In this document: in pieces, positions 16,305-40,143 of the stretch | Position numbering within the stretch: the first letter of the stretch is position 1 | How the letters are laid out: each line of letters starts with the position of its first letter | Origin: Helicobacteraceae bacterium | Lineage (GTDB): Bacteria; Campylobacterota; Campylobacteria; Campylobacterales; Sulfurimonadaceae | Assembly (NCBI GenBank): GCA_015484575.1 | Contig: WFND01000161.1 | Coordinates: 1-40,143, forward strand | Length of the DNA: 40,143 nt | Reading direction: 5' to 3' | Translations under genes and position numbers: made by a program | The notes under the pieces: generated by a model | Databases searched by the model: none | What the model was told of the DNA's origin: nothing | What the model saw: the letters and a program-made list of their open reading frames with translations, nothing else

Positions 16305-16309
16305 GCTCT
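16285..16309. terminator. hairpin between convergent genes, containing stop codon sequence of both
   Basis: AGAGCCTA (16285-16292) / TAGGCTCT (16302-16309), 9-nt loop; no long U-tract. Confidence 0.5.
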
Positions 16310-18776
16310 AATGTACGGATATGCTTATGGTGTCTGAAAGCTTATTGTATTTAGCTGTAACTGTGGCATTTCCATCTGAGACACCATGTATCACTCCATG
16401 TGAATTAACGCTTAAAACAGAGTTGTCAGATGAACTCCAGTTGCAATCAGGCGAGGAGTTAACATACTCTATAGAGTCATCACTGTAACGTACAGCAGCA
16501 TTTAGTTGTAAATCTTCACTCACATTAATATCTCTAGTGCTTGATTGTATTGTTAAGCTCTGTTGAGATTTAAAGACAGTGATAGTTGTTGAAGCTGTAT
16601 GCCCTTCATAAAGAGCTTTGATTTTTGTATCACCTACACTTATGCCGGTTACCGTAGCGTTACTATCTACCGAAGCTATCGCTTCATTAAAAGATACCCA
16701 CTGAACTTTTGTTGTCGCCTCATCTCTTCTGCCATCTTTATAATCTATATAGGCTCTTAAAGAGATACTCTTGTTTACATCAACTCTGTTAGCTAACTCT
16801 TGGATTATCACAGAGATTATCTTAGGTTCAATAACATTGATAGATTGAGTAGCAGTTATGTCGTTGTATGTGGCATTTACATATACTCTGCCAATATTAA
16901 CGGCATAAAAGTTGCCTCTGGCACTTACACTAGCAACATAAGATGGGTATGTACTCCATTTAACCGCATATGTAAAATCTCGTTTGGCTCCATTTGAGTA
17001 GATAGCATATGCTTTAATTTTCATGCTATCGCTTCGATTTATGGTAGTTTGTGGTGCATCTATAATTAAAGAGACAACTTCCGGTTCAACCACGTTTAGT
17101 ATAAAAGTTGTGATTACTGCTCCATAAGAAGCTGTTATAGTAGTGCTTCCTTTAGAGAGAGCCTTGAGTTCACCTCTGTTTGTCTCATCATTTGATACGG
17201 TTGCAATATGCTCTTTAGAACTTTTAAAAAATACACTTTGAGTTATCTCTTGTGTAGTTCCATCAATGTAATAAGCATATACTTTAAGGTTCTTACCGTA
17301 GCCTACGGGTACACTTTCATTAATATCCGGTACTATTTTTAACTCTTTAAGTGCAGGAGTTCCGACTGTTACATCCATAGAAGCATACAGAGAGCCAAAA
17401 TCAGTTTTTATGGTGCTTATACCACTTTTTCTGGCTAAAATTTGACCTGAACTCTCTTTTGTGTTTGCGACAGAGATTATCTCCTGATTGGAGCTGTGCC
17501 AAAAACTTTCACTGTTGACTCTGTATCGGTTTTTCTCTTTATCTATGGCTACGCTCTGTAAAAGTGCATTTAGCCCCTCTTTTATGGATGTAACCGGAGA
17601 GTGTAACTGCAAAGAGACTATATCTGTATTTTGTACTTTTAGGGAGATGGTATCACTCATATCATCAAAAGATGCTTCAATATCCACATTGCCAGAAGAT
17701 AGAGTTTTATAGCAACCTCTTTTATCTATATCCAATATTTTTATATCACTGCTTTTCCATTTTACGCCTCTGTTTACAAGCTGTTTTAAGCCATCATCAA
17801 AATTTACTAAAAGATTAAAACATCCATAAGAGGAGATGTTTTGATCTTTTAACTTAAAGAGTCTTAGCTTCTCTTGGGGAGAGATTATCTTTATGTTGGT
17901 AGGCGATGATTTTAAGACGGTGACTCTTGCTGTTTGAGTAAAGTTACCCACTTTTGCCTCTATATTGCACAAACCTTGTTGATTTGCTTTTAAAAGTGCA
18001 TCTGTATCGATTTGAGCAACTTGAGGAGATGTCGAACTCCATAAAACATCTTTTGTAATATCTTCATCGCTGCCGTCACTAAAGTGAGCTCTTGCAGAAA
18101 ATTGATGATATGTCTGTTCGTGAAGCGAGAGGGTATCTTCACTCAATATAAGTGAATCCATAGAGCCAGAGAGTATCTTTGTAGTGAAAAAAGAGCTTTT
18201 ATCTCTGTATCTTGCTGTTATATTTACATTGCCGGGCGAAACTGCTTGAACTCTTTGTGATAATATTTTAGCTCTGCTGTCATCACTACTGCTCCAAGCA
18301 ACATCATAGCTTATATCTTGAGAAGTACGATCACTAAAGTAAGCTTTACATGTAAGTGATGAGGTAAAATTTTCATGTAGCGAATAGGTGTCGCTAGAAG
18401 CTTGAATATACAACATATCTGCATCGGAAACTTTAAGAGTAAAAGTTGATTTAACTCCCTTGTAGTATATGTTTAGCGTAGTCTCTCCACTATTTTGTGC
18501 ATAAATTCTTCTATTTTTATAATAAGCAATATCTACATCATCAATAGATATATATGATTCATAGGTTATATCTTTTGAGCTGTTTGTATCGTAAACCTTG
18601 TAGCTTGAACTACTCATAGTGTGTAAAATATCTGTATCTAGCAAAAAGATGATATTGGACTTTTTCCCATCTGTATTTGAACTGCTGCTTGAGCTGTTGC
18701 AAGAGATAAATGTGAAAAGTATAAGTAGTGTTGTTAAAAATATCTTTATAGTTTTACTGCTTTGCATGATAACCAC
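16308..18776 (-). CDS. lipoprotein with multiple Big_2 (Ig-like) repeats, adhesin-like
   Basis: 822 aa; lipobox 'LFTFISC'; repeated 'A.Y.DG...D.T..V.WSSS...VA.V...G...A...G...I.A.Y' units. Confidence 0.8.
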   Translation of the reverse strand: MVIMQSSKTIKIFLTTLLILFTFISCNSSSSSSNTDGKKSNIIFLLDTDILHTMSSSSYKVYDTNSSKDITYESYISIDDVDIAYYKNRRIYAQNSGETTLNIYYKGVKSTFTLKVSDADMLYIQASSDTYSLHENFTSSLTCKAYFSDRTSQDISYDVAWSSSDDSRAKILSQRVQAVSPGNVNITARYRDKSSFFTTKILSGSMDSLILSEDTLSLHEQTYHQFSARAHFSDGSDEDITKDVLWSSTSPQVAQIDTDALLKANQQGLCNIEAKVGNFTQTARVTVLKSSPTNIKIISPQEKLRLFKLKDQNISSYGCFNLLVNFDDGLKQLVNRGVKWKSSDIKILDIDKRGCYKTLSSGNVDIEASFDDMSDTISLKVQNTDIVSLQLHSPVTSIKEGLNALLQSVAIDKEKNRYRVNSESFWHSSNQEIISVANTKESSGQILARKSGISTIKTDFGSLYASMDVTVGTPALKELKIVPDINESVPVGYGKNLKVYAYYIDGTTQEITQSVFFKSSKEHIATVSNDETNRGELKALSKGSTTITASYGAVITTFILNVVEPEVVSLIIDAPQTTINRSDSMKIKAYAIYSNGAKRDFTYAVKWSTYPSYVASVSARGNFYAVNIGRVYVNATYNDITATQSINVIEPKIISVIIQELANRVDVNKSISLRAYIDYKDGRRDEATTKVQWVSFNEAIASVDSNATVTGISVGDTKIKALYEGHTASTTITVFKSQQSLTIQSSTRDINVSEDLQLNAAVRYSDDSIEYVNSSPDCNWSSSDNSVLSVNSHGVIHGVSDGNATVTAKYNKLSDTISISVH

Positions 18777-21695: not shown

Positions 21696-24600
21696 TTATC
21701 TTAAAGTATTTTGTATCTGATGCGAGGCATCAAAGTTGTGTAAAGTACCTTTATGAGTGTTATCAAAAAAGTAAACCAGAGAGAATCCTGCCTGTAGCAT
21801 CTCATAGCTGTATATGCTCTCAAAAGATGCAGCTGAAATAATATCTACGTTATCTGTAAGTCTGTAGCCTATGCCAAGAGAGGCTTTATAAGTAAGACCA
21901 CCATTTCTATAACCGCTGACTATGCCTGTTAATTGTGCATCATCTATATCATGAAGAGGATATTTATCTACATCATCAACTATATATCCTTCAAAACCGA
22001 GTGAACCTTTTGCTTTATAATAAAATTTTGAGCCAAAAGTATCTCCCACATCTACTATAAAGTTACCTAGCCAGAACTCCTGAGGGCTAAAATATCCACC
22101 ATGACCATAGGTGAAAAGGTCGCTGTTTTTATCAAAACTGTCATAAACAAACAAGAGACCGAAATCAGCATATGAGAGATCTTCTATACTGCTATGATAT
22201 ATAGCACTGCTAACAAGTTTAAACTCACTGTTTTTCATAACATTTAAACCATGAATGTTCGGATAGTACGAGAGATCAAGATTTAACGTAACATCTGAAT
22301 CATAACTGACACCTGCCTCAAAACCCTCTTTAAGCACACGTCCCCAGTTTACTTCTAAGTTGTTTTTGTTTGCACGTTCTCCAACATACGAGAGCATAGT
22401 CTCATCAAGACCTTTTTGTAAAAATGAGATATGAGCACCCCATGAATCTATACTGCCTTGAACTCTTGCCAACCAAGTCAGTTCCGCAGATAGTTTTGCT
22501 CCTAAAGGAGTAGAGCCTATCTCAAGCTTAAAGTTAGAAGTTTCAACACCTATTTTAGGTTCAAAGCCAATATCACTTGCAATCTCATCTTGTCTTTGTG
22601 ATTCACCCAACCCAAAGTCTAAAAAACTACTGTTGCTGTCAGATACAAAACCGTCGTAAAGGTATAAAATATCTCCATCACCATACCAGTGAATAGTCGG
22701 GCTTTGGTATATATCTACATCTAGCGGCAGAGAGTATGTTTCAAGCCAGTGGAGACCTTTTAATCCGCTTCTGCGTTTATAGTGAAGTCCACCTGCTAGA
22801 AGGTCTTGTTTATCTGTGCTTTTGTAGCTTTTATTTATCTGAGTAAGCAGCTCATGACGCTCTTTTGAATCTGGCAATGGGTAGAGAATCTTTTTTGCTC
22901 TGGCTTGTTCTTTTAGATCCATATATAGTTTGGCAATATTATAGCTCTGCTCTTCATTAAGATTTGAGTCTATGCGATTTAATGCTTTTACGGCACTTTC
23001 GTTATCACCGTTTTGATATGCACTTAGAGCATAAGCGTATGTGTCATCAATATTTTGACCGTAATCCAAATTTAGTTTGGCAAATAATTTTTCTGACACC
23101 TCATAGTGCTTGGTATAATAAGCACACCAAGCGTGAACCCTCTCAAGACCTCTGCTCTTTTGATCAACCAAAACAGCATTTGCATATCGGTAGCAGAGAT
23201 TAAAACGTCTGTTTTTATAGTAGCTTAATAGTCTGGCTCTCTCATACTCATGTTTTAGTGCAATAAGTTTTATATGCTCATCTCTTTTTGTATGTTTTTT
23301 TAAAGCATCTTTCATTGTTGATTCAAATAGATAATCCTCTTTTGAATCTTTAATTCTGTATAGATAGAGCATCAATATATTAAAATCGTCGGGATTAAAC
23401 TTTAATGCTTTTTTATATGCCAGTAGAGCTTCTCTGTTTTTATCAAACTCATAAGACTCTGCTACTTGAAGATACAGAGCACTTTTTGTCTGATTTGAGT
23501 CTATATTGTTTATAAGTGCGACCGCTTTGTTATAGTTGTGATTTAAAAGCTCTACTTTAGCACTACAGGTTAAAAAAGGCTCCTTCTCATAATACTCTAT
23601 AGCACTTAGACGTTGATAATATTTTAAAGATTTTATACATTTTTCCTGCTGAGCAAGTAGAAAAGCCTCTGTACTAATAGCATAACGGTTATCTTTATCT
23701 AGCTGAAATATTTTGCTGATAGTTCTCTCTACTTCATCATAAGATTTTAGATTTAATAGTATCTCAATTCGTTTTTGCAAGATGTGTATATCATTGGGAT
23801 ATATAGTATCAAGATACTGTATCATCTGCAGTGCTTCTTGGTATGAGCCTTTTTTAATAACTTTATCAACATCATTTAAAAATGATATTTTATAAGGATC
23901 TGCTACACCTTTTTTATTTTTTAATTTGTCATACCAGAAGGCCGCACGTCTGTAGTCATTCATATTCATTGCACTGTTAAAAGAGAGCTGAACTGCTTTT
24001 TGACTTTTTGTGTAGTAGTATAGTTTTTGTGATAATTTAGATGATTTTGAATAATATTTTAGATTATAATATGCGTACATTTTACCTTCAAGATTACTGT
24101 ATGTTTTTCTGATTTTACCTGCGATATTGAAAAGATTTATAGATTTTTTTGGATCAGATTCAACACTTTTCCACGCTTCATCCATCAGTTTTTGATACTG
24201 AGCATCAAGATATAGACGCTTTGCTTTTTTTGAGCCGTCTATTAGAGGGTATAATATCTTTTTAGCACTCTCATAATTTTTATTTTGTATATATTTACCG
24301 GCTCGTGAGAGAGTTATGTTTTCAATTAGCTCTCTAGCTTTTGTATGAGTATTTATGTAAGGAATCATAAGTTTAACAGCTTTTTTATATTGTAGATTTT
24401 TCTGGTATAAAAGAGCTTCTCGGTAATCAATCTCAAATTTGTATTTTTTACTTTTTACATCTTTGCTCAACTCTCTTGCTCTTGTAAAATCACCTTTTTT
24501 TGTAGCTTCATCTATTTTGGCGATTGCAATAGATTTTCTATATTTTTCAAGTGATGGAAACTGTTTTACGTATGAGCTTAGCAGGGAGTCTGCTGATTTA

Positions 24601-25187
24601 TATCTTTTAGAGTGTAGATGTGCATAAAATTCAGTGACTATTGAGTCATAATATAACTTTTTTGCTTTCTTGTCGGTTTTTATAAAAGGTTCTAAATATT
24701 TACGTGTTTTAGCATATCTGTAGCGTTTCATGGAGACTAGGGCAAGAGCGTAAGAGTGTTTTAAATTTGGACTGTTTTTATAGTATGGTAAAAATATACT
24801 CTCTGCCTCTTTGTATCTTTTTTGATTATAGGCGTTGTATCCTGCATAAAACGGTATTGCTGAGATGTATGAGTCTCTCTTTTTTACCTTTTTCTTATTT
24901 AGATCGACAATAGTATATTCTATATTTGACTTTTTTAGAATTTTGATGGTTCTGTTTAGCGATTTTGTACTGTTAGTGTCGTTACATCTTAAAAAAAGTT
25001 TTTTATTTTTTCTGTTTAATATATAACATTTTAGACCTAATTTACGATATTTAAACGCTTTTTTTTGTAAAACATCTATGTACTCAGGGGTACTTTGAAT
25101 TAATTCAAATGTTACATGTAAGGGTTTAGCATGTAATATATTAAATAGTAGTGAAAAGATAAAGAGAGTACGCAAAATAGTTTTCAT
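21696..25187 (-). CDS. bcsC: BcsC-like TPR plus outer membrane beta-barrel export protein
   Basis: 1163 aa; TPR-like helical repeats then a C-terminal barrel with 'YGHGGYFSPQEFWLGNF' (BCSC_C-like). Confidence 0.8.
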   Translation of the reverse strand: MKTILRTLFIFSLLFNILHAKPLHVTFELIQSTPEYIDVLQKKAFKYRKLGLKCYILNRKNKKLFLRCNDTNSTKSLNRTIKILKKSNIEYTIVDLNKKKVKKRDSYISAIPFYAGYNAYNQKRYKEAESIFLPYYKNSPNLKHSYALALVSMKRYRYAKTRKYLEPFIKTDKKAKKLYYDSIVTEFYAHLHSKRYKSADSLLSSYVKQFPSLEKYRKSIAIAKIDEATKKGDFTRARELSKDVKSKKYKFEIDYREALLYQKNLQYKKAVKLMIPYINTHTKARELIENITLSRAGKYIQNKNYESAKKILYPLIDGSKKAKRLYLDAQYQKLMDEAWKSVESDPKKSINLFNIAGKIRKTYSNLEGKMYAYYNLKYYSKSSKLSQKLYYYTKSQKAVQLSFNSAMNMNDYRRAAFWYDKLKNKKGVADPYKISFLNDVDKVIKKGSYQEALQMIQYLDTIYPNDIHILQKRIEILLNLKSYDEVERTISKIFQLDKDNRYAISTEAFLLAQQEKCIKSLKYYQRLSAIEYYEKEPFLTCSAKVELLNHNYNKAVALINNIDSNQTKSALYLQVAESYEFDKNREALLAYKKALKFNPDDFNILMLYLYRIKDSKEDYLFESTMKDALKKHTKRDEHIKLIALKHEYERARLLSYYKNRRFNLCYRYANAVLVDQKSRGLERVHAWCAYYTKHYEVSEKLFAKLNLDYGQNIDDTYAYALSAYQNGDNESAVKALNRIDSNLNEEQSYNIAKLYMDLKEQARAKKILYPLPDSKERHELLTQINKSYKSTDKQDLLAGGLHYKRRSGLKGLHWLETYSLPLDVDIYQSPTIHWYGDGDILYLYDGFVSDSNSSFLDFGLGESQRQDEIASDIGFEPKIGVETSNFKLEIGSTPLGAKLSAELTWLARVQGSIDSWGAHISFLQKGLDETMLSYVGERANKNNLEVNWGRVLKEGFEAGVSYDSDVTLNLDLSYYPNIHGLNVMKNSEFKLVSSAIYHSSIEDLSYADFGLLFVYDSFDKNSDLFTYGHGGYFSPQEFWLGNFIVDVGDTFGSKFYYKAKGSLGFEGYIVDDVDKYPLHDIDDAQLTGIVSGYRNGGLTYKASLGIGYRLTDNVDIISAASFESIYSYEMLQAGFSLVYFFDNTHKGTLHNFDASHQIQNTLR

Positions 25188-26172
25188 GCTCTTTTTTCAT
25201 CCTTTTTTTAAGTTCAGTATCGATAGTTGTCGTATCGAGATTATACTGTTTTGCTATCTTCTTATAGATAGCTAAATGTCCAAATGACAAGTTATATAAA
25301 GAGATCTCTCCAGAGTCTAAGTTAACAGAACCCAATGTATGCTCTTTCATCATAGCCACATAGTCTATATACGGTTTTAGGAGCCTCTTTTTTTCATCTT
25401 GTGTCAGTGAGCTTCTTATAATATTTAGAGGTATCCTAATGGCATCATAAGAGAAATAGGGCTTTTTTTTATCTAATGAAAATTTATTATTTTGTATATC
25501 TAAAATCATCCAGTCGGGATTTAGTTGCAACTTTGAAAATCGTCCCTTTAAAAGTATCTGTTTTGAACTCTCTATAAGCTCTTGCCAGATGCTATTGTTG
25601 TCGTGTTTGGATAGATATTCAAAAATTTCAAATAACATATATGATGGATTTAGTGTCAATGTTTTTTTATCTAAAAAACCTTTTTCTCCGGGTAAAAGAT
25701 AGGCTTTTGAATCAATTGTTTTAATCTGGTGCAGTTTTATATTTTTTAAAAGTGAGTCTGCTTCACTTTTGTATATGGAGTTTTTCTCTTTTTCATTCAT
25801 CAAAAGCAGAGAGTATGCAATCCATAGATTTGCATCAGATGCACTGTTTAAATCGAGCATTTTCCAGTTGCCGTCTTTGGCTTTTCCCCATTTCCATCCG
25901 GGAAGATTTAGAGTGTTCTTTTTAATATTGTTTTTATACCAAGTATATATAAGTGAAAAAGTTTTTTTATCATTAAAGTGCTGTGCAAAATAGAGGGCAT
26001 AACCTATGCCCTCTGTATGAGTTACATCGTTATTGTTATAATCTATAACTCTTCCATCTTTTTGTATAAATATACTTTTATACTCTTGCCAAGAGTTGCT
26101 TTGATGGCTCAAAGCAGATAGATTTGCCGTAACACTTAAGGTGATAATAAAAAATTTTAGCTTATTTAACAT
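25141..26172 (-). CDS. bcsZ: glycoside hydrolase family 8 endoglucanase, BcsZ-like
   Basis: 343 aa; 'VTHTEGIGYALYFAQHFNDKKTFSLIYTWYKNN', 'GWKWGK', 'NSASDANLWIAYSLLL' GH8 features; position between bcsB and bcsC. Confidence 0.8.
   Translation of the reverse strand: MLNKLKFFIITLSVTANLSALSHQSNSWQEYKSIFIQKDGRVIDYNNNDVTHTEGIGYALYFAQHFNDKKTFSLIYTWYKNNIKKNTLNLPGWKWGKAKDGNWKMLDLNSASDANLWIAYSLLLMNEKEKNSIYKSEADSLLKNIKLHQIKTIDSKAYLLPGEKGFLDKKTLTLNPSYMLFEIFEYLSKHDNNSIWQELIESSKQILLKGRFSKLQLNPDWMILDIQNNKFSLDKKKPYFSYDAIRIPLNIIRSSLTQDEKKRLLKPYIDYVAMMKEHTLGSVNLDSGEISLYNLSFGHLAIYKKIAKQYNLDTTTIDTELKKRMKKEHENYFAYSLYLFTTI
25992..26014. repeat. 10-bp perfect inverted repeat with 3-nt loop inside the GH8 gene
   Basis: AGAGGGCATA - ACC - TATGCCCTCT. 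Confidence 0.85.
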
Positions 26173-28393
26173 CTTTATGTTTGCGTCCTTTAAATGCTAA
26201 TAACAGTCTTCTAATCAACCACGTTGCAAATAGAAGAACAGCTATCATTATAAGTACATATCTAAGTGGATTTGCACTAACTATCAAGCTCACTTTATCT
26301 AGCCAGTTCATAGAACTTAATATGTATTTGTCTTTCACATCAAAAGAGATACCCTCTTCATCTATATGATCATAAAGTAGTGTATCTCCTTGAATTAGGT
26401 GGCGGTTTTCGTATTTTAAGATAGACTTTACACCTCTGTTTAAGTTGTTTGCATCTTCTGCACTAAACATTAAGACTGTTTTTTGAGAGTTATAAGGCGA
26501 ACGATACAGTTGCATAAGCAGAGTGCTGTCTAGTTGATTTGTTTCGTACATATTTTTTATAAAACGGTATTTTTTAGTTCTGTCATTATCTAGTATGCTC
26601 TCATGCTCTATAAAACGTTTTATAAAAGGGTATGCTCTGTTCATTTTAACACCCTCAAACGAGATAGGTGCATCGGTGCTTAACTCTTGCATAAGGCTGT
26701 CGTGAATAGAGCCGAAAAAGATTAACTGTTTATCTTTGGCATCAGAGCTTAAAGCTTGTGATATACCTAGGTATGATGGGAAGCTTTGCATCTGCTGTGT
26801 TAAAAAAAACGTGAAGTTCATTGCCGCTGCGATGGTATCTAATTTTGTATTGCTAAGCACAAACTGTGTATCTTGCAGATCCGGATAGATTGAGTATGGG
26901 TATGTTGAAGTTGAGATGAGTTGTAGATACGGCATCTCTATCCAACGTTTTGACTCTGGAAGTATAAAGTATGAATCATCCATAATCATGGCTAAAAGAT
27001 TTTCAGTATTATATATCTCACAGTGTCCTTTTTTATCTGGAACTAAAGAGAAATCAAATTTTAGTTTATTAAAACCTTTTCCTACTAGATATGCCGGTAG
27101 TCCATCTTCATCAGTCCAATCAAAAAGTGCTCCGACTTTTAAAGTTACGGTACTCTCTTGAGAAACTTTCATAATATCTATCTGCTTTGCAAATAGATCA
27201 TTAAGATAGATATTTACTACAGAATCATAATGCACGGTTGTAGGAAAAACGTAACGTATATGGGTTTTTATTCTATCTTTTTTATTAAAATAGTGGTCGG
27301 GATAGACTTTGAAACTCAGCTCTACCTTTGGAGGATACCAGCCTTTTAAAACCTCTGTCTTGTATCCTAGCTCTTTAAAATATATCTTCTCATTTACCGG
27401 AATATATTTTTTTGCCGAATATGCAGGAGCTTTTTCGGGGATGGTGACTTTTTCTATATTTAGAGCAGCTCTTCTGTAGAGAGTTAAGTCCTCTTTATAT
27501 AGTGCATATATCGTTTCATCTATCTTTGAGCTGTCATCAGGTGTGATTAGCACTATAGCCTTGTCCGGTTCAAATGGATTTCGTATGATATTTATATCGT
27601 TTGCAACCGCTTTTGATACGTCAAGTGTAGTATCTAAGTCTTGTAAAATCTCTTTTGCTCTGCTTTTTGATGAGATTATAATATTGTGAGCGTTGTTCTT
27701 TATGCTGTGAGATGCTGAAATAGGTGCGATACGATACTTTAGCTGATTTGCGGCTGCACCGGTAAATAGCATATAGTGTCTAAGCTCCTCATCGCTTGGA
27801 TTCCTTGATATAACATAATTTATCGGTTTGACCTCATACTGTTTGTCATCAAGCATATAGGTTACGATAGAGCGTATCTCTTGCGGAATAGGTTTTAATC
27901 TTACATGAAACTCAAGATAACTTTTCTCTAGGTTAATATCACTCCATAATTCAGAACTTGAACCATCCTCGCACTCATGCGTATAGTGTTGAATCATCTC
28001 TAGGCTAAGAGTATTATGCGAAGTAAAAAGTTTAGGAGGAATAGAAAATTTTACTCCCGTGTTCATATTGTCAAAAAGTTTAAATTGAGTCAATAGGGCA
28101 TTGTTAAAAAGAACCAGACCCGCAGAGTGTTCTTTCATCATAAGAATAGATGAATCATAATCTATATAACCTCTTGCATCAAGTATCTCCCAGCTTCCCG
28201 GCAGAGGAAACTCTATGCTGTGAATTCCATCCACTCCTCTAATTCTCTGTATTTTTTGATTTGTATTGACATAATTTAAATCAACCCGTACTAAAAATGT
28301 CCCATCTTTAAGAGTGGTGGTTGTGATTGGATCTATTTTTGTTTGAGCTATTAAAACCCCAACAGTTATAAATAGTAGCAGTAGCAGACGCAT
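26162..28393 (-). CDS. bcsB: cellulose synthase regulatory/periplasmic subunit BcsB
   Basis: 743 aa; signal peptide, beta-rich periplasmic region, C-terminal TM anchor 'PLRYVLIMIAVLLFATWLIRRLL'; located directly after bcsA. Confidence 0.85.
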   Translation of the reverse strand: MRLLLLLFITVGVLIAQTKIDPITTTTLKDGTFLVRVDLNYVNTNQKIQRIRGVDGIHSIEFPLPGSWEILDARGYIDYDSSILMMKEHSAGLVLFNNALLTQFKLFDNMNTGVKFSIPPKLFTSHNTLSLEMIQHYTHECEDGSSSELWSDINLEKSYLEFHVRLKPIPQEIRSIVTYMLDDKQYEVKPINYVISRNPSDEELRHYMLFTGAAANQLKYRIAPISASHSIKNNAHNIIISSKSRAKEILQDLDTTLDVSKAVANDINIIRNPFEPDKAIVLITPDDSSKIDETIYALYKEDLTLYRRAALNIEKVTIPEKAPAYSAKKYIPVNEKIYFKELGYKTEVLKGWYPPKVELSFKVYPDHYFNKKDRIKTHIRYVFPTTVHYDSVVNIYLNDLFAKQIDIMKVSQESTVTLKVGALFDWTDEDGLPAYLVGKGFNKLKFDFSLVPDKKGHCEIYNTENLLAMIMDDSYFILPESKRWIEMPYLQLISTSTYPYSIYPDLQDTQFVLSNTKLDTIAAAMNFTFFLTQQMQSFPSYLGISQALSSDAKDKQLIFFGSIHDSLMQELSTDAPISFEGVKMNRAYPFIKRFIEHESILDNDRTKKYRFIKNMYETNQLDSTLLMQLYRSPYNSQKTVLMFSAEDANNLNRGVKSILKYENRHLIQGDTLLYDHIDEEGISFDVKDKYILSSMNWLDKVSLIVSANPLRYVLIMIAVLLFATWLIRRLLLAFKGRKHKDVK

Positions 28394-30609
28394 TAGTACC
28401 CCTTTTTTGTGAATAATATATTTTTCATATATGAAAATGTTAATGAAAACGCCTCTCTAAAGAGGGCATTTTGAAAACTCTGTTTTACAATATATGCAAA
28501 ACTTTCAAATGGATTCATCACTTTGTGACTGTCATCAAACTCTTTCCAGATAGTAGTATTGCCGTATATGATTTGAATCAGTTTTTGTCTCGGTTTAATT
28601 AACTTACTAATATCTTTAAATATAAATATCAGATTTGAACCCCAGCCAAAAGCTCTTAAAAACTCGGCAGGTATTTCAAATGATTTATTATCTACATCTG
28701 CTAAATGTATAGTTACGCTTTTATGTTTAAGAAGCAGATTCTCTTTTCCCTCTTTCTCATCCGGTGTGATACTCATGCCGCCCTCTCCAATATCTGAAAT
28801 AGTTCCTGTATAAGATACGTTATCGATGAAAAATTTACATTTTGCATTGATAGGAACACGTATATATTTTCTAACATCACCTTTTTCGCTAGTAACGGCT
28901 ATAGCAGAGATTAGCAGGAAAAAATTTAGCAGATTCCAAAAGGTGGTCATTACTACTATATCTCTCTCATCAGGGTAAGCATAAAACTTTATAGCAGAGG
29001 CAACAAAACCTAAGATAACAATACAGAGCATAATAACAAAAGGGATGGCAAGTTCACTTACATGAGTTTTACTCTGATCCTCTCCTTTTGGTGTAACTTT
29101 GAAAGTAGGATGGCGTGGACTCCATAGTGTCTGAACAATAGCAGGAAGCGTAAAAAATGACAAAACGGTCTCATATAGCTCGGAAAAGAATGGATTTCTC
29201 ACCTTTGCATATAGAAAAAACGACATCATTACCGCCATAAACATATGAGGCACGACATAGGCTAACATCTCAACGCTGTTTGCATTATATATTCGTAGAT
29301 TAAAAAAGAGATACATAAGCGGGGCTAAATAAAAAACAACTCTTGAAAATGCAAAAAACCAGAAAAAACTTGCACTCAGATAGCTTAATTTCTGGTACCA
29401 CTTTAAATTTTTAGAGAGAAACGGATTTTTAAGCATAAAAATCTGAACCATTCCCTGCGTCCATCTAATACGTTGCGTAACCAATGCACTAAAACTTTCA
29501 GCCTGTAATCCACGAATAAGAGGTTCACTGATATATGCACTTTTGTAGCCTCTATCGTGAAGTTTAATGGCTGTTTCTGCATCTTCTGTAATAGTCTCTC
29601 CGGCAATTCCGCCTAACTCATCTATATATTTTCTTCTTAAAATTGCTGCTGAACCACAAAAAAATGAACTCTCCCAAAAATCGTGACCTAGCTGAATATA
29701 TCTATAAAACATATCATTTTCACTGATAGATGTTCCAAACATTTTAAGATTTTTCTCGATGGGATCGGCATTGTAAAAGGCGTGAGGAGTCTGAACAAGA
29801 AACATCTTCTCATCTTTTAAAAACCAACCTGTTGTACGCTTTAAAAACTGTTTTGCAGGTACGTGATCCGTATCTAGGATAAGTATTAAATCGTTGTTGG
29901 CATGAGATAGTGCGGAGTTTAGATTACCCGCTTTTGCACTGACATTTTTCTCTCTTGTTACGTAAGTAGCACCGACAAATTTGCAAAATTTTTGTAGATA
30001 TGCTCTACGCTCTCTTGCCTCTTTTGCACTCTCTTGATTGGAGTCATTGCATTTTTGGTCGGTTCCGCCGTCATCACAGAGAAAAACTTTAAATTTATCT
30101 TTGGGATAATCGAAGGCCAATGCTGCTAAAACGGTATTTTCAATCATTAGATAAGGTTCATTGTACGTAGGTATTAAAACATCAACCGAGGGTAGCTCCT
30201 CTTGTGAATATTCAGAAAGTTCGATAGGTTTTCTTTTTAAGATATTTAGCGAGGTAAAGATACCAAGAAGATAGATAACTATAGCAATCAGTTCAGCTAA
30301 ATAGAGAAACAGAGCACCTATATAATCAAAAAACCCCTCATAAATCAGTGAATCAAAAGTTCTCCAATAGAGGTATCTTAAAACTACGATAACAGCTAAA
30401 AGTTTTATAAACAGCCTGAGAAAATCCGGTATATTTTTAAATTGCAACACTATAAGAAGTAAAAGTGAGCTTCCATAGCCTATGACAAATTGTGTCTCAA
30501 TAGTGTAGTGCGAACTTATAAGTATATAAAAAAGCGTTACAATAAATATGATAGCGACAAAACGTACCACTGCATTTTCAAATATTGCTGATACGATTTT
30601 TTCAGTCAC
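28393..30609 (-). CDS. bcsA: cellulose synthase catalytic subunit BcsA with C-terminal PilZ domain
   Basis: 738 aa GT2; 'LCDDGGTD', 'LILDTDHVP', 'TITEDAETAIKLHDRGYKSAYI', 'TQRIRWTQGM' (QxxRW); PilZ 'RKYIRVPINAKCKFFI..GTISDIGEGGMSI'. Confidence 0.95.
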   Translation of the reverse strand: MTEKIVSAIFENAVVRFVAIIFIVTLFYILISSHYTIETQFVIGYGSSLLLLIVLQFKNIPDFLRLFIKLLAVIVVLRYLYWRTFDSLIYEGFFDYIGALFLYLAELIAIVIYLLGIFTSLNILKRKPIELSEYSQEELPSVDVLIPTYNEPYLMIENTVLAALAFDYPKDKFKVFLCDDGGTDQKCNDSNQESAKEARERRAYLQKFCKFVGATYVTREKNVSAKAGNLNSALSHANNDLILILDTDHVPAKQFLKRTTGWFLKDEKMFLVQTPHAFYNADPIEKNLKMFGTSISENDMFYRYIQLGHDFWESSFFCGSAAILRRKYIDELGGIAGETITEDAETAIKLHDRGYKSAYISEPLIRGLQAESFSALVTQRIRWTQGMVQIFMLKNPFLSKNLKWYQKLSYLSASFFWFFAFSRVVFYLAPLMYLFFNLRIYNANSVEMLAYVVPHMFMAVMMSFFLYAKVRNPFFSELYETVLSFFTLPAIVQTLWSPRHPTFKVTPKGEDQSKTHVSELAIPFVIMLCIVILGFVASAIKFYAYPDERDIVVMTTFWNLLNFFLLISAIAVTSEKGDVRKYIRVPINAKCKFFIDNVSYTGTISDIGEGGMSITPDEKEGKENLLLKHKSVTIHLADVDNKSFEIPAEFLRAFGWGSNLIFIFKDISKLIKPRQKLIQIIYGNTTIWKEFDDSHKVMNPFESFAYIVKQSFQNALFREAFSLTFSYMKNILFTKKGY

Positions 30610-30623
30610 TTTTTGCTCTTTGC

Positions 30624-31376
30624 TTAATACTGATCGGTGTCTATTTGTGGATAATAGTCTGGGTTGTATGAGCCTTTGGAGTCTGTAGTTGAACTCTCTT
30701 TATCAACTGCTTCTACCCAGAAATCATCATCTGCTTTTGGTGTAGGTTTATATCTTTTTTTGCTTATCTCTTCTCTCTTTTTAACTTTTATTGGTTTTTT
30801 TGGTTTTTGAACAACATCGTCTTCAGGCTCACTATCATCTTCCTCTTCAAGATATACGGGTGCAAAACATTTTTGGCAATCTCTCCAAAGCGTATCAGTA
30901 TAATATGCCTTTTCAGGCTTAGGCTGCTCATATTTACGTTTTTTTACAACTTGGCTCTTATGTTTTTTAATTGGAGTATAATTTTTTTCATAACCCATCT
31001 CTCTTTTAGGTGGAATATCTCTTCTTTCATATTTAGGTAATTTTTTCTCAATTGGAGTAGAGTACTTTGGATATATTATTCTTGAAGTATCAAAATCACA
31101 CTTTCTGATATAAGCATCACTATAATATTTTTTAACACCGTTTATAACTTCAAGTGCTTGAGAATAAGAGCTGTAATCACCAACTCTCAGTACAAGATAT
31201 GAGCCTCTCTCTTCAACTCTTGAGTTATTGAAGTTTGTTAACACATCTGATTGTCTTGAACTTATTCGGTTTTCATCAAACCTATATAAAGTCACTGCCT
31301 GTATGCAGTAATTTGCCAAAACCGGAATAGACGATAATAAAAGTATATAAACAAGTTTCATAAAATAGATAACCAC
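30624..31376 (-). CDS. secreted SPOR-like protein with Lys/Pro-rich middle, first gene of the bcs-type operon
   Basis: 250 aa; 'YCIQAVTLYRFDENRISSRQSDVLTNFNNSRVEERGSYLVLRVGDYSSYSQALEVINGVKKYYSDAYIRKC' resembles SPOR. Confidence 0.55.
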   Translation of the reverse strand: MVIYFMKLVYILLLSSIPVLANYCIQAVTLYRFDENRISSRQSDVLTNFNNSRVEERGSYLVLRVGDYSSYSQALEVINGVKKYYSDAYIRKCDFDTSRIIYPKYSTPIEKKLPKYERRDIPPKREMGYEKNYTPIKKHKSQVVKKRKYEQPKPEKAYYTDTLWRDCQKCFAPVYLEEEDDSEPEDDVVQKPKKPIKVKKREEISKKRYKPTPKADDDFWVEAVDKESSTTDSKGSYNPDYYPQIDTDQY

Positions 31377-31499: not shown

Positions 31500-33401
31500 A
31501 TGATTAAAAAAAATATTTTTATGCTTTTTATATTGCAGATCTCTCTATTTGCGAATTACTGTATAGAGGTAGATAAATTTTCAGTCTCAGAAGCTCAGAA
31601 AAATACACAAGAGATAAGAGAACTTTTAAAAGAGTTGCCTTATCCGAGTACAGTGGTTAAAGATGGTTACATCTCAGTGTGTACAGGTAAGTTTAAAGAT
31701 AGAGCATCAGCAAAGTCACTTCTACCGCTTACAAAATCGAGATATGTAAAAGCAACGGTAATCTCTAGTGAGGGAGCAAAAAGTTTTATACCTGTGATGC
31801 AGATAAAATCAGCCAAAACAGATGATTTACATGTAAGTCAAAAATTTAGAAAAAGAGATGAGTATTATGCAATTGAGATTGATAAGCTAACTCCTAAAGA
31901 GTATAAAAACAGACAAGAGTATGTTCAAAATATTTTAAATCATATCCCTTTTAGTGAAGTTGTTGAGTATAGAGATTTTTATGTTCTTAGAACGGGTGCG
32001 TTTAAGGAAAAAGAGAGTGCAGATACGATCTGTTCAGTTATAAAACGTATCTATCCTGATGCAAAGATAGTGAGCTATAGCGTAGATGAGAAAAAGATGC
32101 AAAGTGAAGATACTTTACATGTAAGAGAGTATGAAAAACAGAGCAATATTGTCAATGATAGCACAAAAGATATGAAAGAAGATATTGATACATTTAATAT
32201 AAGAACTTTAGACGGCACGATAAGCAGAAAACTTATAAGTAGAAAAAAAGAGGATGAATCTCTTTTATCAAAATATAATGATATACAAAAAGCTGTTATA
32301 TCAAACAAAGATGACTCATTTAGCGGTTTTTATCTCAAATCAAATACTGCTTGGGATACTTTAAACAACGAGACAGCTTATGATGTTAGATTGGAGTGGG
32401 ATATGTATGATCAGGGATATTACCACTCCAAACGCATAGATGAACAAAAAGAGATAGAGAAGAAAGTAGAACTTTACCGCTCTTTAAATTATATACAGTC
32501 TCTCTCAAAAGATGAGGCTTTTAGAAAGATGAAGTATTATTTAAATAGTGTAAACTCCTTTGAAACCATAATAAGATTAAAAATTCAGGAGAGATTTTTA
32601 AAACAGCTAAAACAGAAGTATAAAGCAAGATTGATTACTCAATATGAGTATGACAGTATGCTTTTTAGAGTAGAAAAGGATAAGGAATCTCTGAAGTATT
32701 ATCATAATTTAACTCTCTTGAAGATACCAGAGAAACTTTGGCAACTGCTAAATCAGATAGAGTATGTTCACTTAAAAGATAGCGTAAAACTTTTTGCCAA
32801 ACAGAAAGAGAATAGTGTTGATAATGAATTGTATAACTCTTTAGTTAAAAAAAATCTAATTCATAAAAGTTGGAGTGATAAGTTGAGACTCAATTTCTAT
32901 GTCGGTCAACGCAAAATGTATGCTGCTCAAAATCAGAGTTTATTGGGAATTGATGCAAAAATTCCACTGACTTCATATACTCAAAGTGCCGAACTTGAAA
33001 CTTTACAAAATAGAATTTTGAAAGAGCAGATTTTGCTAAAAGAGCGTCAAGACAAGGATAATCTAACAGAAGCAATCTCTCTTTTTATCTATAAGCAGAC
33101 TCAGCTAAAAAGAAAAAAAGAGGAGTTAAAAAGATTGGCTAAATATCTTAAAACTGTTCAAAAAATAGATGAATTGGGTTATAGTGAGCTTATATCAACG
33201 AGAGGAAAAAGCATAGATGATATATCTCTGCAGTATCATGATAAACATTTAGAGATTTTATTGGGTCGTTTTGAGGTATATAAGCTACTTCTTGAGATTT
33301 TATATCAGACAAAAAGCAGTGATTTTAGCGATTTACTTCAATATGCTCTACCAAATTACGCGGACCATCGGGGGGAGCGTATCTCGCATTTAATGGAGTA
33401 A
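31500..33401 (+). CDS. secreted protein with two SPOR-like N-terminal units and a coiled-coil, TolC/OMF-like C-terminal region
   Basis: 633 aa; signal peptide; 'NYCIEVDKFSVSEA..GYISVCTGKFKDRASAKSLLPLTKSRY' and 'YYAIEIDKLTPKEY..FYVLRTGAFKEKESADTICSVIKRIYPDAKIVSY'; long helical remainder. Confidence 0.55.
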   Translation: MIKKNIFMLFILQISLFANYCIEVDKFSVSEAQKNTQEIRELLKELPYPSTVVKDGYISVCTGKFKDRASAKSLLPLTKSRYVKATVISSEGAKSFIPVMQIKSAKTDDLHVSQKFRKRDEYYAIEIDKLTPKEYKNRQEYVQNILNHIPFSEVVEYRDFYVLRTGAFKEKESADTICSVIKRIYPDAKIVSYSVDEKKMQSEDTLHVREYEKQSNIVNDSTKDMKEDIDTFNIRTLDGTISRKLISRKKEDESLLSKYNDIQKAVISNKDDSFSGFYLKSNTAWDTLNNETAYDVRLEWDMYDQGYYHSKRIDEQKEIEKKVELYRSLNYIQSLSKDEAFRKMKYYLNSVNSFETIIRLKIQERFLKQLKQKYKARLITQYEYDSMLFRVEKDKESLKYYHNLTLLKIPEKLWQLLNQIEYVHLKDSVKLFAKQKENSVDNELYNSLVKKNLIHKSWSDKLRLNFYVGQRKMYAAQNQSLLGIDAKIPLTSYTQSAELETLQNRILKEQILLKERQDKDNLTEAISLFIYKQTQLKRKKEELKRLAKYLKTVQKIDELGYSELISTRGKSIDDISLQYHDKHLEILLGRFEVYKLLLEILYQTKSSDFSDLLQYALPNYADHRGERISHLME

Positions 33402-36003
33402 AGGTTATCTCTTTCCAGAGATGTTTATAGCTTAGGGTGCTTTTGATATTACGAACTGTGTTATCATGAGCATATCCGCCGTGAAAATTAATATCTACAT
33501 TTGTCAGTTTTAGATTTTCTAAAAGATTGTTGCTACTACTCCACTGCAGTGTGATGTGGCGAATATTTTTTATCTGTGAATCTCTTAGCGTTGAGTTGTA
33601 AGTTCTTGCAAAACGGACATATCCATTTCCTTTTTTTCCTTTGTTCCATGCACCGTTTATGTAGAGATTTCTATGCTCTGCCATAAGTACATTTTCCATC
33701 ACCAAAGGATGTCTTCCGCTATTTAAAATCTTAATATTATCGGCAGATACTTTGGCACAATACTCAAAACGAATCATATCAACCATGTTATCAGGATAGA
33801 CATTTTCATATACAAACTGAACACTCTGTATATTTTTACCTTTTATATCATGTGCAATTGTAAAATCTTTCAATCTAATATCTTCTATCAGATTAAGACC
33901 CCAAATCTCAGAGATATTTTTTGGAAATATTGTCTCTATTTTATGTGAAAGTGTTAATAATTTAGCTCTGCGGTTATAGCGATATAGCTGAAATATCTGC
34001 TGTCTTAAATATGGATATTTTTTTCTCCATATTTGAGAACCTATATTGTGTAAAAATCTATCTGTATTTGGGGTGCGTATAAGTATGTATCTATATGTAG
34101 TATTATCTTTTATTTTAGCTTCTGCTATTGTATTGTTTAGTTTTGTACTCTCTTTTAAGTGTCCAATTTTCTTGCCTCTTGAGCCTTTGACATATATAGC
34201 AGCTATATCTTTTGTGTGTAGATGAGAGATAATAATACTATTGTCTCTGCCCTCTCCCTCTAGCGTAATATGGTTTTTGTTGATAATTATAGAGCTATAT
34301 AGATCTATTTTTCCTTCCGCAAGAGTGATTTTACAAGGTTTAATTCCATCACATTTTTGTATGAGTTTATTTATGGCAACTGCATCATCTCTATCATCAT
34401 TTACGATTACTCCATAATTTTCAGCCAGAAAAAACTGATGTTTTTGAATATTTGATGATTTTAATATATCCGTATCTGGAAGGGCAAGTGCATCATGAGA
34501 GAGAAGCATAACAAAAATAAAAAAGATATAAGAGCCGACCATCATAAAATCAGGCATAAAATTAACAAGAGGGTGATCTACTTTAGCTACAGAATCATCA
34601 CTTGACTGCACATCACCACCTTTTGACCACTTTTGATCTGATATATTAAATAGAGCTTTAATTTTTACAACTGAGCCTATCCACTGCCCGTATAGCATTA
34701 GAGGAAGACTTCTCCATGAGACTATATGACCATTATAGGCTATAAAAGCTATCTGTATAGTACGCACAATAAGTATCCATGCAAAATAGAATAAAAAGTA
34801 GTAAAAAGCTTTAAAGATGCCTAAAATAATAGCACCGGTTATACCTACTAGAGATGTCCACATAGATATTCTCTGATCCAATATAGCCCACCAGATAAAG
34901 AATCCTACATGTTTTGGACCCAAAGCTAACGCTCTGTTTGAATTTCTTAAAGTGTTACCATACCAGCGATATGGTAAAGAACGACTAAGTTCAAAAAAGT
35001 CGGCATCACGACTCTCTAGTGAATAACAGAGTGTATCCGGAAGGTATCGCATATTCCAGCCATCTTTTAACAGGTTGTACCAAGTTGTCTTGTCGTCTCC
35101 CATTAAAAATCTAAATTTTCCGTGCATTACGGTTGTAATTACATCATTTTCCAATCGTCTGATAAACTCATCTTCTATAACTAAATTGGTTCTGTAAGCA
35201 GAGAGTCTTCCTGTGAGAGTTAGCACTTTGTTTGAGAGTGAGTGTGACTGAAAGAGCATGTGGCGTTGCCCGAATTTAAGATTAAACCAATCTTTGTACC
35301 AGTCTGAATTTGTTCTGATAAAAGCAGCTTCATTTGTAGTTAACGCACCCAATTTTGGATCAATTGCAAAATGTGGCAAAAGTTTTTTGAAAAAACCTTT
35401 CTCAAGATAACTGTCACCATCCATGAAAAAAGTTACACTATGATAATCATGTCCCTCTTTTAGATAGCGTCTAGCTATCGCCCTAAGACCATGTCCCATA
35501 GCGATTCTTTTTCCCTCTTTTTGATGTTGAAAAACAAGATCTACCTTTTTTCTTACGGTATGTGTGCGATAGAGTTTTTCTATAATTGTATCTTCTTCAG
35601 ATGAGCCGCTTGTGGAGACTACTATAGTAGCGTGTGAGGGAATGGTTAATAGTTCGTTAAATATAGACTTAAATGTCTCAATACTGACCCAGGCCTCTTC
35701 TTTGTATGATGGAATTAAAAAGTAGATATGATCTGGGTATCTTTTGGATTTATCAAGTTTTTCAATCTTTTTCAGATAGCCTTTATAGACAAATTTATTA
35801 TATATAAAACCACGAGCCATATTGAGACCCAACCAGCCGTAACGCCAAAAAGCAAACAGTCCTATAACAATAATTGTCTCATTTTTCGCATAATACACAT
35901 ATGGCCACATTATGTATATGATAACCATAGCTAAGCTTACATAGATAAGAGTCGGCTCTATAAGAGAGATTAAAGCATCACGTTTTCCATATCTTAAACG
36001 CAT
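33325..36003 (-). CDS. Alg8-like GT2 polysaccharide synthase fused to a C-terminal parallel beta-helix domain
   Basis: 892 aa; 'FFMDGDSYLEKGF', 'GDDKTTWYNLLKDGWNMRYLPDT', 'ALALGPKHVGFFIWWAILDQRISMWTSLVG' resemble Alg8; residues ~530-892 'AENYGVIVNDDRDDAVAINKLIQ...ITLEGEGRDNSIII' pectate-lyase-like beta-helix. Confidence 0.75.
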   Translation of the reverse strand: MRLRYGKRDALISLIEPTLIYVSLAMVIIYIMWPYVYYAKNETIIVIGLFAFWRYGWLGLNMARGFIYNKFVYKGYLKKIEKLDKSKRYPDHIYFLIPSYKEEAWVSIETFKSIFNELLTIPSHATIVVSTSGSSEEDTIIEKLYRTHTVRKKVDLVFQHQKEGKRIAMGHGLRAIARRYLKEGHDYHSVTFFMDGDSYLEKGFFKKLLPHFAIDPKLGALTTNEAAFIRTNSDWYKDWFNLKFGQRHMLFQSHSLSNKVLTLTGRLSAYRTNLVIEDEFIRRLENDVITTVMHGKFRFLMGDDKTTWYNLLKDGWNMRYLPDTLCYSLESRDADFFELSRSLPYRWYGNTLRNSNRALALGPKHVGFFIWWAILDQRISMWTSLVGITGAIILGIFKAFYYFLFYFAWILIVRTIQIAFIAYNGHIVSWRSLPLMLYGQWIGSVVKIKALFNISDQKWSKGGDVQSSDDSVAKVDHPLVNFMPDFMMVGSYIFFIFVMLLSHDALALPDTDILKSSNIQKHQFFLAENYGVIVNDDRDDAVAINKLIQKCDGIKPCKITLAEGKIDLYSSIIINKNHITLEGEGRDNSIIISHLHTKDIAAIYVKGSRGKKIGHLKESTKLNNTIAEAKIKDNTTYRYILIRTPNTDRFLHNIGSQIWRKKYPYLRQQIFQLYRYNRRAKLLTLSHKIETIFPKNISEIWGLNLIEDIRLKDFTIAHDIKGKNIQSVQFVYENVYPDNMVDMIRFEYCAKVSADNIKILNSGRHPLVMENVLMAEHRNLYINGAWNKGKKGNGYVRFARTYNSTLRDSQIKNIRHITLQWSSSNNLLENLKLTNVDINFHGGYAHDNTVRNIKSTLSYKHLWKEITFTPLNARYAPPDGPRNLVEHIEVNR

Positions 36004-36006
36004 AAT

Positions 36007-37374
36007 TTACCACAAAGGCTTATGAAACCACACTTTTACACGCTCATTTAGATTTAAAGAATCTACATGCTCATCTAAAAGTAATTTAACAGTAACTTCA
36101 TTTAAGCTAACCTCATTAGATATCATAGACTCTGTATTTATGGAGAGATTTCCTAGTGTCTGTACATGAGCCTTAAATGTTCTGTCTAAACTGGGAATAT
36201 AGACCTCTGCACTCATACCTTTTTTTATATTTATCACTTCGTTTTTGAGCACTTTGCATACGATATATGGTTGATTGTCTGTCTGAATAACCATAACTTC
36301 ATCACCTGAACCGACATGATTTCCTACATGAGATTTAATGGCATATATGCTACCGTAAGCAGATGCAAATACACGTAGGTAGTTTAGACTGTTTACGAGT
36401 TCTGAGCGTCTTAATTCTAAATCTGTTTTGAGTGCTATAAGAGATTGATTTGTACTAGGGTATGATCTGTTTTTCTCTTGTAAATAACGTATATTTGCAC
36501 GTTGATAACGCTCTTTTTCTCTGTTTAATTCACTCAAAGTAATTAATCTGTTGTGATAGAGGGATTTTATCTTTTTATATCGCTTTTGTGCCTCTTTTTT
36601 CTCTAAATATAGTATATCTAACAGTGGTGATTTTCCTCTTTTTGCAGGAGTGTTTTCATTAAGAGATAGAAGTTTTTTATCTAAAATTTCAATTTTATCT
36701 ACAGTAGATTGTTCATCTAGCTCAAAAAGCAGAGTATTTGGCTCAACACGATCGCCCACCTTGACATAAATTGCACTTATTTTTCCTGTTGCGTTTGGAG
36801 ATACTTTTATAAAATTACCAGATACTATGCCTATAGAGCGATACACATACTGAATATTGTAAAAAATGGTTATGAAAATAAGCACTAAAAGAGAAAATCC
36901 AAGTGTTAAGTATAGACGAGAACGTTTTTTAAAAGCCACTTCTAAAGCTCCCATCTCACTGTCGCTTAGAGCAACTGACTCTTTAAGGGGAGTGTCTAAA
37001 ATAGGCTCATTGTATATACCTATAACTCCATCGGCATTTTCTAAGTTTCCTTCTATAGACAGCTCAAGGTACTCTCTTAAGACTCTTCTGTTGGATTCGG
37101 ATAGATCGACAAACTCAAAACCGCTGACATCATCTCTTGTGTTTTTGTACTTTAAGGTAACAGGAATCTCTAGCCTAGCTTCTGAAAATCTTAAGAGCAA
37201 TGAGGCGTCAATTATCTGATCGAGTTCATAACTACTTTCTAATTTATCTACCCCTACACCTGTCAATGACCAGTTTTTACATGTAAATATTTTATTGTCA
37301 ATAATTATCTGTATGGGTATATCGATACGATGTGAACGACGCATCTGATTTGATTCTATTTTTATTCCTGCCAT
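36007..37374 (-). CDS. PilZ plus HlyD-type membrane fusion protein, Alg44-like
   Basis: 455 aa; PilZ 'RRSHRIDIPIQIIIDNKIFTCKNWSLTGVGVDKL'; TM; HlyD lipoyl-like 'VSPNATGKISAIYVKVGDRVEPNTLLFELD' and coiled coil. Confidence 0.8.
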   Translation of the reverse strand: MAGIKIESNQMRRSHRIDIPIQIIIDNKIFTCKNWSLTGVGVDKLESSYELDQIIDASLLLRFSEARLEIPVTLKYKNTRDDVSGFEFVDLSESNRRVLREYLELSIEGNLENADGVIGIYNEPILDTPLKESVALSDSEMGALEVAFKKRSRLYLTLGFSLLVLIFITIFYNIQYVYRSIGIVSGNFIKVSPNATGKISAIYVKVGDRVEPNTLLFELDEQSTVDKIEILDKKLLSLNENTPAKRGKSPLLDILYLEKKEAQKRYKKIKSLYHNRLITLSELNREKERYQRANIRYLQEKNRSYPSTNQSLIALKTDLELRRSELVNSLNYLRVFASAYGSIYAIKSHVGNHVGSGDEVMVIQTDNQPYIVCKVLKNEVINIKKGMSAEVYIPSLDRTFKAHVQTLGNLSINTESMISNEVSLNEVTVKLLLDEHVDSLNLNERVKVWFHKPLW

Positions 37375-38944: not shown

Positions 38945-39511
38945 GTGAAAAATTTAAATAATGAAAAAATTTTCCTGTCAATAGTTATTTTTATAGGGCT
39001 TCTTTTAATGTTCAAAACTATAAAACTACCTTTAAATGAAACAGTAAATGTCACGATTATGCAACAAAAAGGTTCTATATCCACAATAGATACGATACAA
39101 AAAATATCTTCAACAAAGAAAATCACTGTTGATAGTTTGAATTTTTTAGTATCTAGGACATTAGAACACCCTAATTTGGGTAAATTGGGTTACAGCAGAA
39201 ATATATTTTTAAAGGCAGAGACAAAAATGAGTGTCTTAAAATCTGGAATCTATGATTTTTTAGTAGCTTCTGATGATGGATTTAGATTAAAAATTGATAA
39301 CAAAAAAGTATGCGAACATGTTGGAGATCGTCCTATGCAGACAACTATATGTAAAGTAAAATTATCCAAATCGGTACATAAATTTGAGTTACTGTATTTT
39401 CAAGGCGGTGGACCAATGGGCTTAAAAGTAAAATATAAATCAATAGATGGCAAAAGTAGCTATTTTGTAGGTAAAAGCTCTGAATATATAGATTTTCAGG
39501 AGATAAAATGA
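38945..39511 (+). CDS. membrane-anchored PA14-like domain protein
   Basis: 188 aa; N-terminal TM; 'SGIYDFLVASDDGFRLKIDNKKVCEH..VKLSKSVHKFELLYFQGGGPMGLKVKY' resembles PA14. Confidence 0.55.
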   Translation: MKNLNNEKIFLSIVIFIGLLLMFKTIKLPLNETVNVTIMQQKGSISTIDTIQKISSTKKITVDSLNFLVSRTLEHPNLGKLGYSRNIFLKAETKMSVLKSGIYDFLVASDDGFRLKIDNKKVCEHVGDRPMQTTICKVKLSKSVHKFELLYFQGGGPMGLKVKYKSIDGKSSYFVGKSSEYIDFQEIK

Positions 39512-40143
39512 TAAATAATCTATCTTCGCAAAATAGAGAACTCCTAGTTTACGTTTTTGCCGTTTTAATCATAGCATTAAGTACATATGTTTTTAATTAT
39601 TACAATCCTGCATCAGTTTTTTGGGATGAAAATTATCATATAGCTTCAGCACAAAAGTATATAGATGGAGTAATGTACATGGAACCACACCCACCATTGG
39701 GTAAACTTTTTATAGCTTTAGGAGAGGTGATTTTACACCCAAATGATTCTATAGATACATCTTATTTTTTGCATACGGATTATATTAAAAAGTTTCCGCA
39801 AGGTTACTCTTTTGTGGGAATGAGACTCTTTCCTACGCTTTTTGGTGGAGCATCATCTGCTCTATTTTTTCTTATACTGTACCGTTTTTCACGTCAGATG
39901 CAACTATCATTTTTATTTACTTCATTTTATCTGTTTGCTAACGCTTTTATACTTCAAAGTCGTTCGGCTATGCTTGAATCGACTCAGATGTTTTTTATAT
40001 TTGCATCAATATTGTGGTTTATGATTTTATTTGATAAAGAAGAGAAGTCTTATCGTGATTATTTTATATTGGGAATTCTTGTAGGTTTGGCTACTGCTGT
40101 AAAGGTAAATGGTCTTATTTTAATACTTTTACACCCATTTTTA
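39508..40143 (+). CDS. GT39/PMT-like membrane glycosyltransferase, truncated by window end
   Basis: Manual translation, absent from track: MINNLSSQNRELLVYVFAVLIIALSTYVFNYYNPASVFWDENYHIASAQKYIDGVMYMEPHPPLGKLFIALGE...; 'DE..YH' and 'HPPLGK' are PMT-like; AGGAG upstream; ATGA overlap. Confidence 0.75.
   Translation, partial: MINNLSSQNRELLVYVFAVLIIALSTYVFNYYNPASVFWDENYHIASAQKYIDGVMYMEPHPPLGKLFIALGEVILHPNDSIDTSYFLHTDYIKKFPQGYSFVGMRLFPTLFGGASSALFFLILYRFSRQMQLSFLFTSFYLFANAFILQSRSAMLESTQMFFIFASILWFMILFDKEEKSYRDYFILGILVGLATAVKVNGLILILLHPFL

Follow-up and report, generated by a model that had tools for sequence, protein, structure and literature searches.

The stretch of DNA analysed here (40,143 nucleotides, hereafter the window) carries a genuine fusion gene, in which an Alg8-like synthase and a right-handed beta-helix are confirmed to reside in one polypeptide. 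The database search proposed with the original prediction found the complete fusion in at least 20 further genomes, spread over Campylobacterota, Gammaproteobacteria, Burkholderiales and Desulfobacterota, and the gene belongs to a conserved multi-gene system. It consists of known parts in a new arrangement, and no description of such a fusion was found in the literature searched, mainly open-access journal papers. The features of the window considered below are as follows.

33325..36003, minus strand: fusion gene, Alg8-like GT2 synthase plus predicted periplasmic beta-helix, 892 aa
34489..36003, minus strand: Alg8-like synthase half (residues 1-505), processive GT2 with five TM helices
33328..34437, minus strand: right-handed beta-helix domain (residues 523-892), from AlphaFold2 and Foldseek against the PDB
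33460..33645, minus strand: outward polar patch (residues 787-848), proposed active-site groove, from conservation and AlphaFold2 strand register
36007..37374, minus strand: Alg44-like co-polymerase, PilZ (R12xxxR16, N34-W-S-x-x-G39) plus HlyD/EmrA-type membrane-fusion region
31500..33401, plus strand: SPOR plus candidate TolC-like (OEP) outer-membrane factor, convergent with the fusion gene
30624..31376, minus strand: small SPOR-domain protein between the module and the bcs operon (PF05036, E 0.008), position conserved
21696..30609, minus strand: complete cellulose operon bcsA-bcsB-bcsZ-bcsC, a neighbour outside the fusion system proper

Architecture of the fusion protein

The open reading frame starts at an ATG and runs through all 892 codons with no interruption, and the peptides quoted in the original prediction lie inside it. 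The full-length AlphaFold model (pLDDT 86.7, pTM 0.56) has membrane helices at residues 15-38, within 41-82, and at 368-397, 401-423 and 478-502; the last of these, the fifth, stands just before the beta-helix, where a transmembrane segment had been anticipated. Five membrane helices have also been described for Alg8 (PMC8461298), a number that matches the fusion model. Five helices and a cytosolic GT domain would place the C-terminus in the periplasm, and the periplasmic location predicted for the beta-helix gains support from this topology model as well as from a stand-alone homologue with its own signal/lipobox-like N-terminus.

The N-terminal half matches GT2 families (PF13641, E 1.2e-27) and contains the invariant synthase motifs DGD (195-197), GDDK (302-305) and RW (346-347), with D195, D197, D303, D304 and K305 unchanged in 21/21 fusion sequences. 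Over 462 aa it is 34% identical to the Alg8 encoded in a complete alginate-type operon (L018); the DxD and GDDK motifs and this Alg8-level similarity mark it as an Alg8-type GT2, as had been proposed for residues ~1-500. In a Foldseek search of the full-length model, the GT half groups with hyaluronan, cellulose and chitin synthases. Derivation from the neighbouring BcsA was considered and rejected, as BLAST similarity between BcsA and the fusion GT is not significant. The reference operon itself (L018:1875-12710 of G051, another member of the Campylobacterota) is compact and encodes AlgA, a PL7 lyase, an AlgD-like protein, Alg8, Alg44, AlgG (with DPHD) and AlgE.

The beta-helix domain and its invariant polar patch

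The C-terminal half of the window protein alone matches the pectate-lyase-like family PF12708 at E 0.0026, under the gathering cut-off, and the beta-helix claim was therefore tested through its relatives. PF12708 is matched by 19 of the 26 family members (best 2.9e-7), and AlphaFold2, with the alignment of the 26 sequences as input, returned an all-beta domain with a mean pLDDT of 94.7 and a pTM of 0.92. In Foldseek, the domain is closest to right-handed beta-helix proteins that act on polysaccharides as lyases, depolymerases or epimerases, among them K1 capsule lyase, RbmB, phage depolymerases and the epimerase modules of AlgE4/AlgE6. The matches, which also include GH28 and GH110 enzymes, are generic (TM <= 0.57, ~10% identity). 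The beta-helix foreseen at residues ~530-892 thus withstands both structural checks. One family member also matches GH28. A PDB search with the single sequence gave nothing useful, and the family profile hit just the generic cap at the N-terminus of pectate-lyase-like proteins, from which no functional inference was drawn.

One polar face of the beta-helix, alternating with buried hydrophobics, is invariant. Y795, H816, Q820, D837, N839 and H841 are invariant in 26/26 beta-helix sequences, likewise K788, R815, W821, N848 and the APPD tail, while H846 and D847 are conserved in 25 of the 26; the patch is kept down to 32% identity. Y795/H816/D837 and Q820/H841 are exactly 21 residues apart, matching the AlphaFold2 strands, so that three successive coils with this spacing can be read as Y795/H816/D837, (R or K)797/T818/N839 and (A/S/N)799/Q820/H841. 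The side chains listed for these coils should share one orientation and have hydrophobics in between, an assignment based on strand register and conservation rather than on measured distances. An invariant polar patch of this kind looks like an active site, although a conserved surface could instead reflect binding.

For AlgE7, a mechanism with His as the base and Tyr as the acid has been proposed, the counterparts in AlgG being the His of its DPHD motif and Tyr314 (PMC8824271, PMC4444821). The search for AlgG or lyase catalytic residues in the fusion had a divided outcome: the DPHD motif of AlgG is absent from the beta-helix, and a different invariant polar patch is present on one face. The AlgG model NF038177, which scores in a control alginate genome, has no match in 15 fusion genomes. 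The domain shares the right-handed beta-helix of AlgG and lacks its DPHD, and its identification as AlgG was abandoned.

Partner genes and genomic neighbourhood

Almost every fusion locus with sufficient flanking sequence also encodes an Alg44-like and a TolC-like protein. The Alg44-like protein has the features of Alg44, i.e. a PilZ domain with RxxxR and (D/N)xSxxG, one TM helix and a membrane-fusion region; the c-di-GMP residues of its PilZ domain are invariant in 17/17 sequences, and its profile matches Alg44 PilZ structures (4xrn/4rt0), the periplasmic part being nearest to EmrA. The signal for the outer-membrane factor is weak and consistent: PF02321 is matched by 3 of 17 members (best 2.7e-4, the window member itself lying under threshold), and hhalign against the OEP proteins of the genome gives a probability of 96%. 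SPOR-type repeats occur in the candidate of the window and in its close relatives. Its gene (31500-33401, plus strand) overlaps the 3' end of the fusion gene (33325-36003, minus strand) tail to tail by 77 bp, and comparable overlaps of about 60-80 bp are seen in L041-L043.

The module lies beside bcsA in 6/6 Campylobacterota loci of the window's subtype with enough flank, a shared neighbourhood that suggests co-regulation of cellulose and a second polymer. The fusion locus is not a canonical alginate operon, as none of algD, algA, algG, algE/K and algX occurs in it; AlgG is absent genome-wide, and the AlgE family (PF13372) is absent from the window's own genome. Elsewhere in the window, an 822-aa lipoprotein-like open reading frame with repeated Ig-like units (16308-18776, minus strand; Big2-type by eye) adjoins a possible DUF1566-type one, and a frame leaving the window end (39508-40143, plus strand) resembles, by eye, a dolichyl-phosphate-mannose-type mannosyltransferase.

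Nature of the polymer

The polymer of the fusion system is probably a polyuronate, as suggested by gene neighbourhoods. In a second fusion subtype, PL7 alginate-lyase-like lipoproteins (motifs RSEL(R), Q(I/V)H and Y(F/Y)KAG-type) are encoded directly downstream, and the nearest unfused synthases adjoin either AlgD and AlgA, at L154, or, at L150, AlgL together with an AlgG-like beta-helix. Some genomes hold both subtypes (L004 with L009/L010 in G022; L025 with L031/L039 in G498), and here it is the second that has the PL7-like genes. The domain also occurs as a separate, probably exported protein: a stand-alone homologue (L040, in G516) begins with a signal/lipobox-like sequence, and two PL7-like genes come after it; this group (L040:204-3085) is located downstream of a GT2/deacetylase locus.

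Mannuronan is unlikely in the window's organism, because a GDP-mannose-dehydrogenase-like (AlgD-type) gene was not found in its genome (92% complete), in which no PL7 gene was found either. The two PF03721 matches of this genome are a UDP-glucose 6-dehydrogenase and a TviB-like protein; if the product is a uronan, UDP-GlcA or an amino-uronate would thus be a likelier precursor than GDP-ManA. For the fusion genome G498, only a UDP-ManNAc dehydrogenase is shown.

Proposed mechanism and alternatives

What the analysis establishes is the fusion, its folds, a topology model and the conservation of module and patch; the catalytic function, the sugar and the export route are inferred. A synthase-dependent, alginate-related exopolysaccharide system, in which a c-di-GMP-controlled synthase carries a built-in epimerase/lyase acting on the nascent chain, is favoured by a modest margin over even odds. 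The missing DPHD motif, the generic nature of the fold matches, the failure to find PL7 or GDP-mannose-dehydrogenase-like genes in the window's genome and the lone UDP-ManNAc dehydrogenase of G498 count against it. The substrate of the Alg8-like half would be a nucleotide-activated sugar, probably a uronic acid, polymerised on the cytosolic side; fold and motifs suggest that this half also forms the membrane channel through which it pushes the product. Homology and gene conservation suggest that the Alg44-like PilZ/HlyD protein activates the synthase through c-di-GMP and spans the periplasm to reach the TolC-like outer-membrane factor. At the channel exit, the fused beta-helix would take the place of a separate AlgG protein and modify the chain in line as it emerges. 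The likeliest reactions are C5-epimerisation and beta-elimination, carried out by the invariant Tyr/His pair.

A broader reading, advanced tentatively and with roughly one chance in three, would make the system a distinct and hitherto undescribed c-di-GMP-controlled exopolysaccharide secretion class, with polymerase and modifier in one polypeptide, an EmrA/HlyD adaptor, a TolC-like exit instead of AlgK/AlgE, a non-alginate uronan (for example, from UDP-GlcA) and a new beta-helix active site. It appears rather improbable that the beta-helix is a non-catalytic cradle, which shields the nascent chain or steers it towards the HlyD/TolC-like exit, a structural task that AlgG performs in addition to its enzyme activity: the scaffold role of AlgG is separable from catalysis (PMC3815931), the domain is tethered to the synthase and a periplasmic bridge is encoded next door, but the stand-alone copy beside lyase genes looks enzyme-like, and catalysis is favoured over pure guiding because the Tyr/His/Asp/Asn/Gln/His patch is invariant. 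Similarly low in probability is a glycoside hydrolase or lyase that trims a uronate or neutral chain for length control or release, in the manner of BcsZ. The depolymerase, GH28 and GH110 matches and the BcsZ encoded in the adjacent operon are in keeping with such trimming; nevertheless, the domain has no family-level GH match, the catalytic Asp triad of GH28 was not identified at the sequence level, and the PL7-like lyase genes of the second subtype already provide clean-up.

Comparison with known systems

The alginate polymerase complex of Pseudomonas and Azotobacter, of which L018 is a Campylobacterota example, comprises Alg8 and Alg44 with a separate AlgG. The fusion system resembles it in the five-helix Alg8-like GT2, the adjacent PilZ-membrane-fusion partner and the synthase-associated periplasmic beta-helix, but differs in that the beta-helix is joined to the polymerase and lacks DPHD, the Alg44-like partner is nearest to EmrA/HlyD, a putative TolC-like factor lies beside it in place of AlgK/AlgE, and AlgD, AlgA, AlgX and AlgG are missing from the locus. 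With AlgE-type epimerases and beta-helix lyases (AlgE4/6, RbmB, K1 capsule lyase) the domain shares the right-handed beta-helix and a polar catalytic-type face, whereas its identity of about 10%, its other invariant motif and its tether to a synthase set it apart. Like BcsA-BcsB-BcsZ-BcsC, the system has a processive GT2 under PilZ/c-di-GMP, and the cellulose operon too encodes a periplasmic processing enzyme; however, PilZ is inside BcsA itself and BcsZ, a GH8, is a protein of its own. The closest published precedent comes from a survey that reported 'atypical' alginate operons without algKE in deep-sea bacteria (PMC7112194).

A covalent polymerase-modifier fusion would provide one modifying site per synthase and render synthesis-coupled modification directly testable. 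The placement of the periplasmic epimerase on the growing chain is, to our knowledge, a standing question in alginate systems. The fusion system further hints that a polymer made by a synthase may leave through a tripartite-pump-like exit, and it may be of use for the one-step production of defined polyuronates.

Distribution and origin of the fusion

Homologues of the fusion have 81% identity within the genus and 43-66% in other genera of the family, and the 21 full-length fusions, counting that of the window, can be aligned over their whole length. Relatives of the C-terminal domain were found in 23 named loci, including Gammaproteobacteria, Burkholderiales/Ramlibacter, Desulfocapsa and Halodesulfovibrio. 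That two genes were joined by an error of annotation or assembly, for which only the fragmented assembly (192 contigs) might speak, has virtually no probability left and is refuted by the same uninterrupted fusion in those other genomes of several phyla; a sequencing error, named beforehand as a possible refutation, is excluded by the continuity of the fusion in the same genus, other genera and other phyla.

Fused and unfused synthases also separate in an unbiased search of 369 gammaproteobacterial genomes in which only the GT half served as query: four matches at 59-60% identity all lie in frames of 882-959 aa, and six at 37-42% all lie in ordinary frames of 500-556 aa. In a tree against seven Alg8s, the fusions form a single clade with full support, next to Alg8-like synthases; on addition of the nearest unfused synthases the support is 78/69, and L149 and the long-branched Halodesulfovibrio row are not placed firmly. 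As the trees group the fusions together beside Alg8-like synthases, a single fusion origin is likely, though not proven. A viral or phage origin of the beta-helix was rejected, the scan of viral contigs having found no relative, and in the plasmid collection the Alg8-like synthases are all unfused and lie, where annotated, in alginate-type operons. The fusion clade is rare, with full-strength matches in 4/369 sampled Gammaproteobacteria and, family-wide, matches in 17 of 228 genomes, a count that includes a true Alg8 and fragments.
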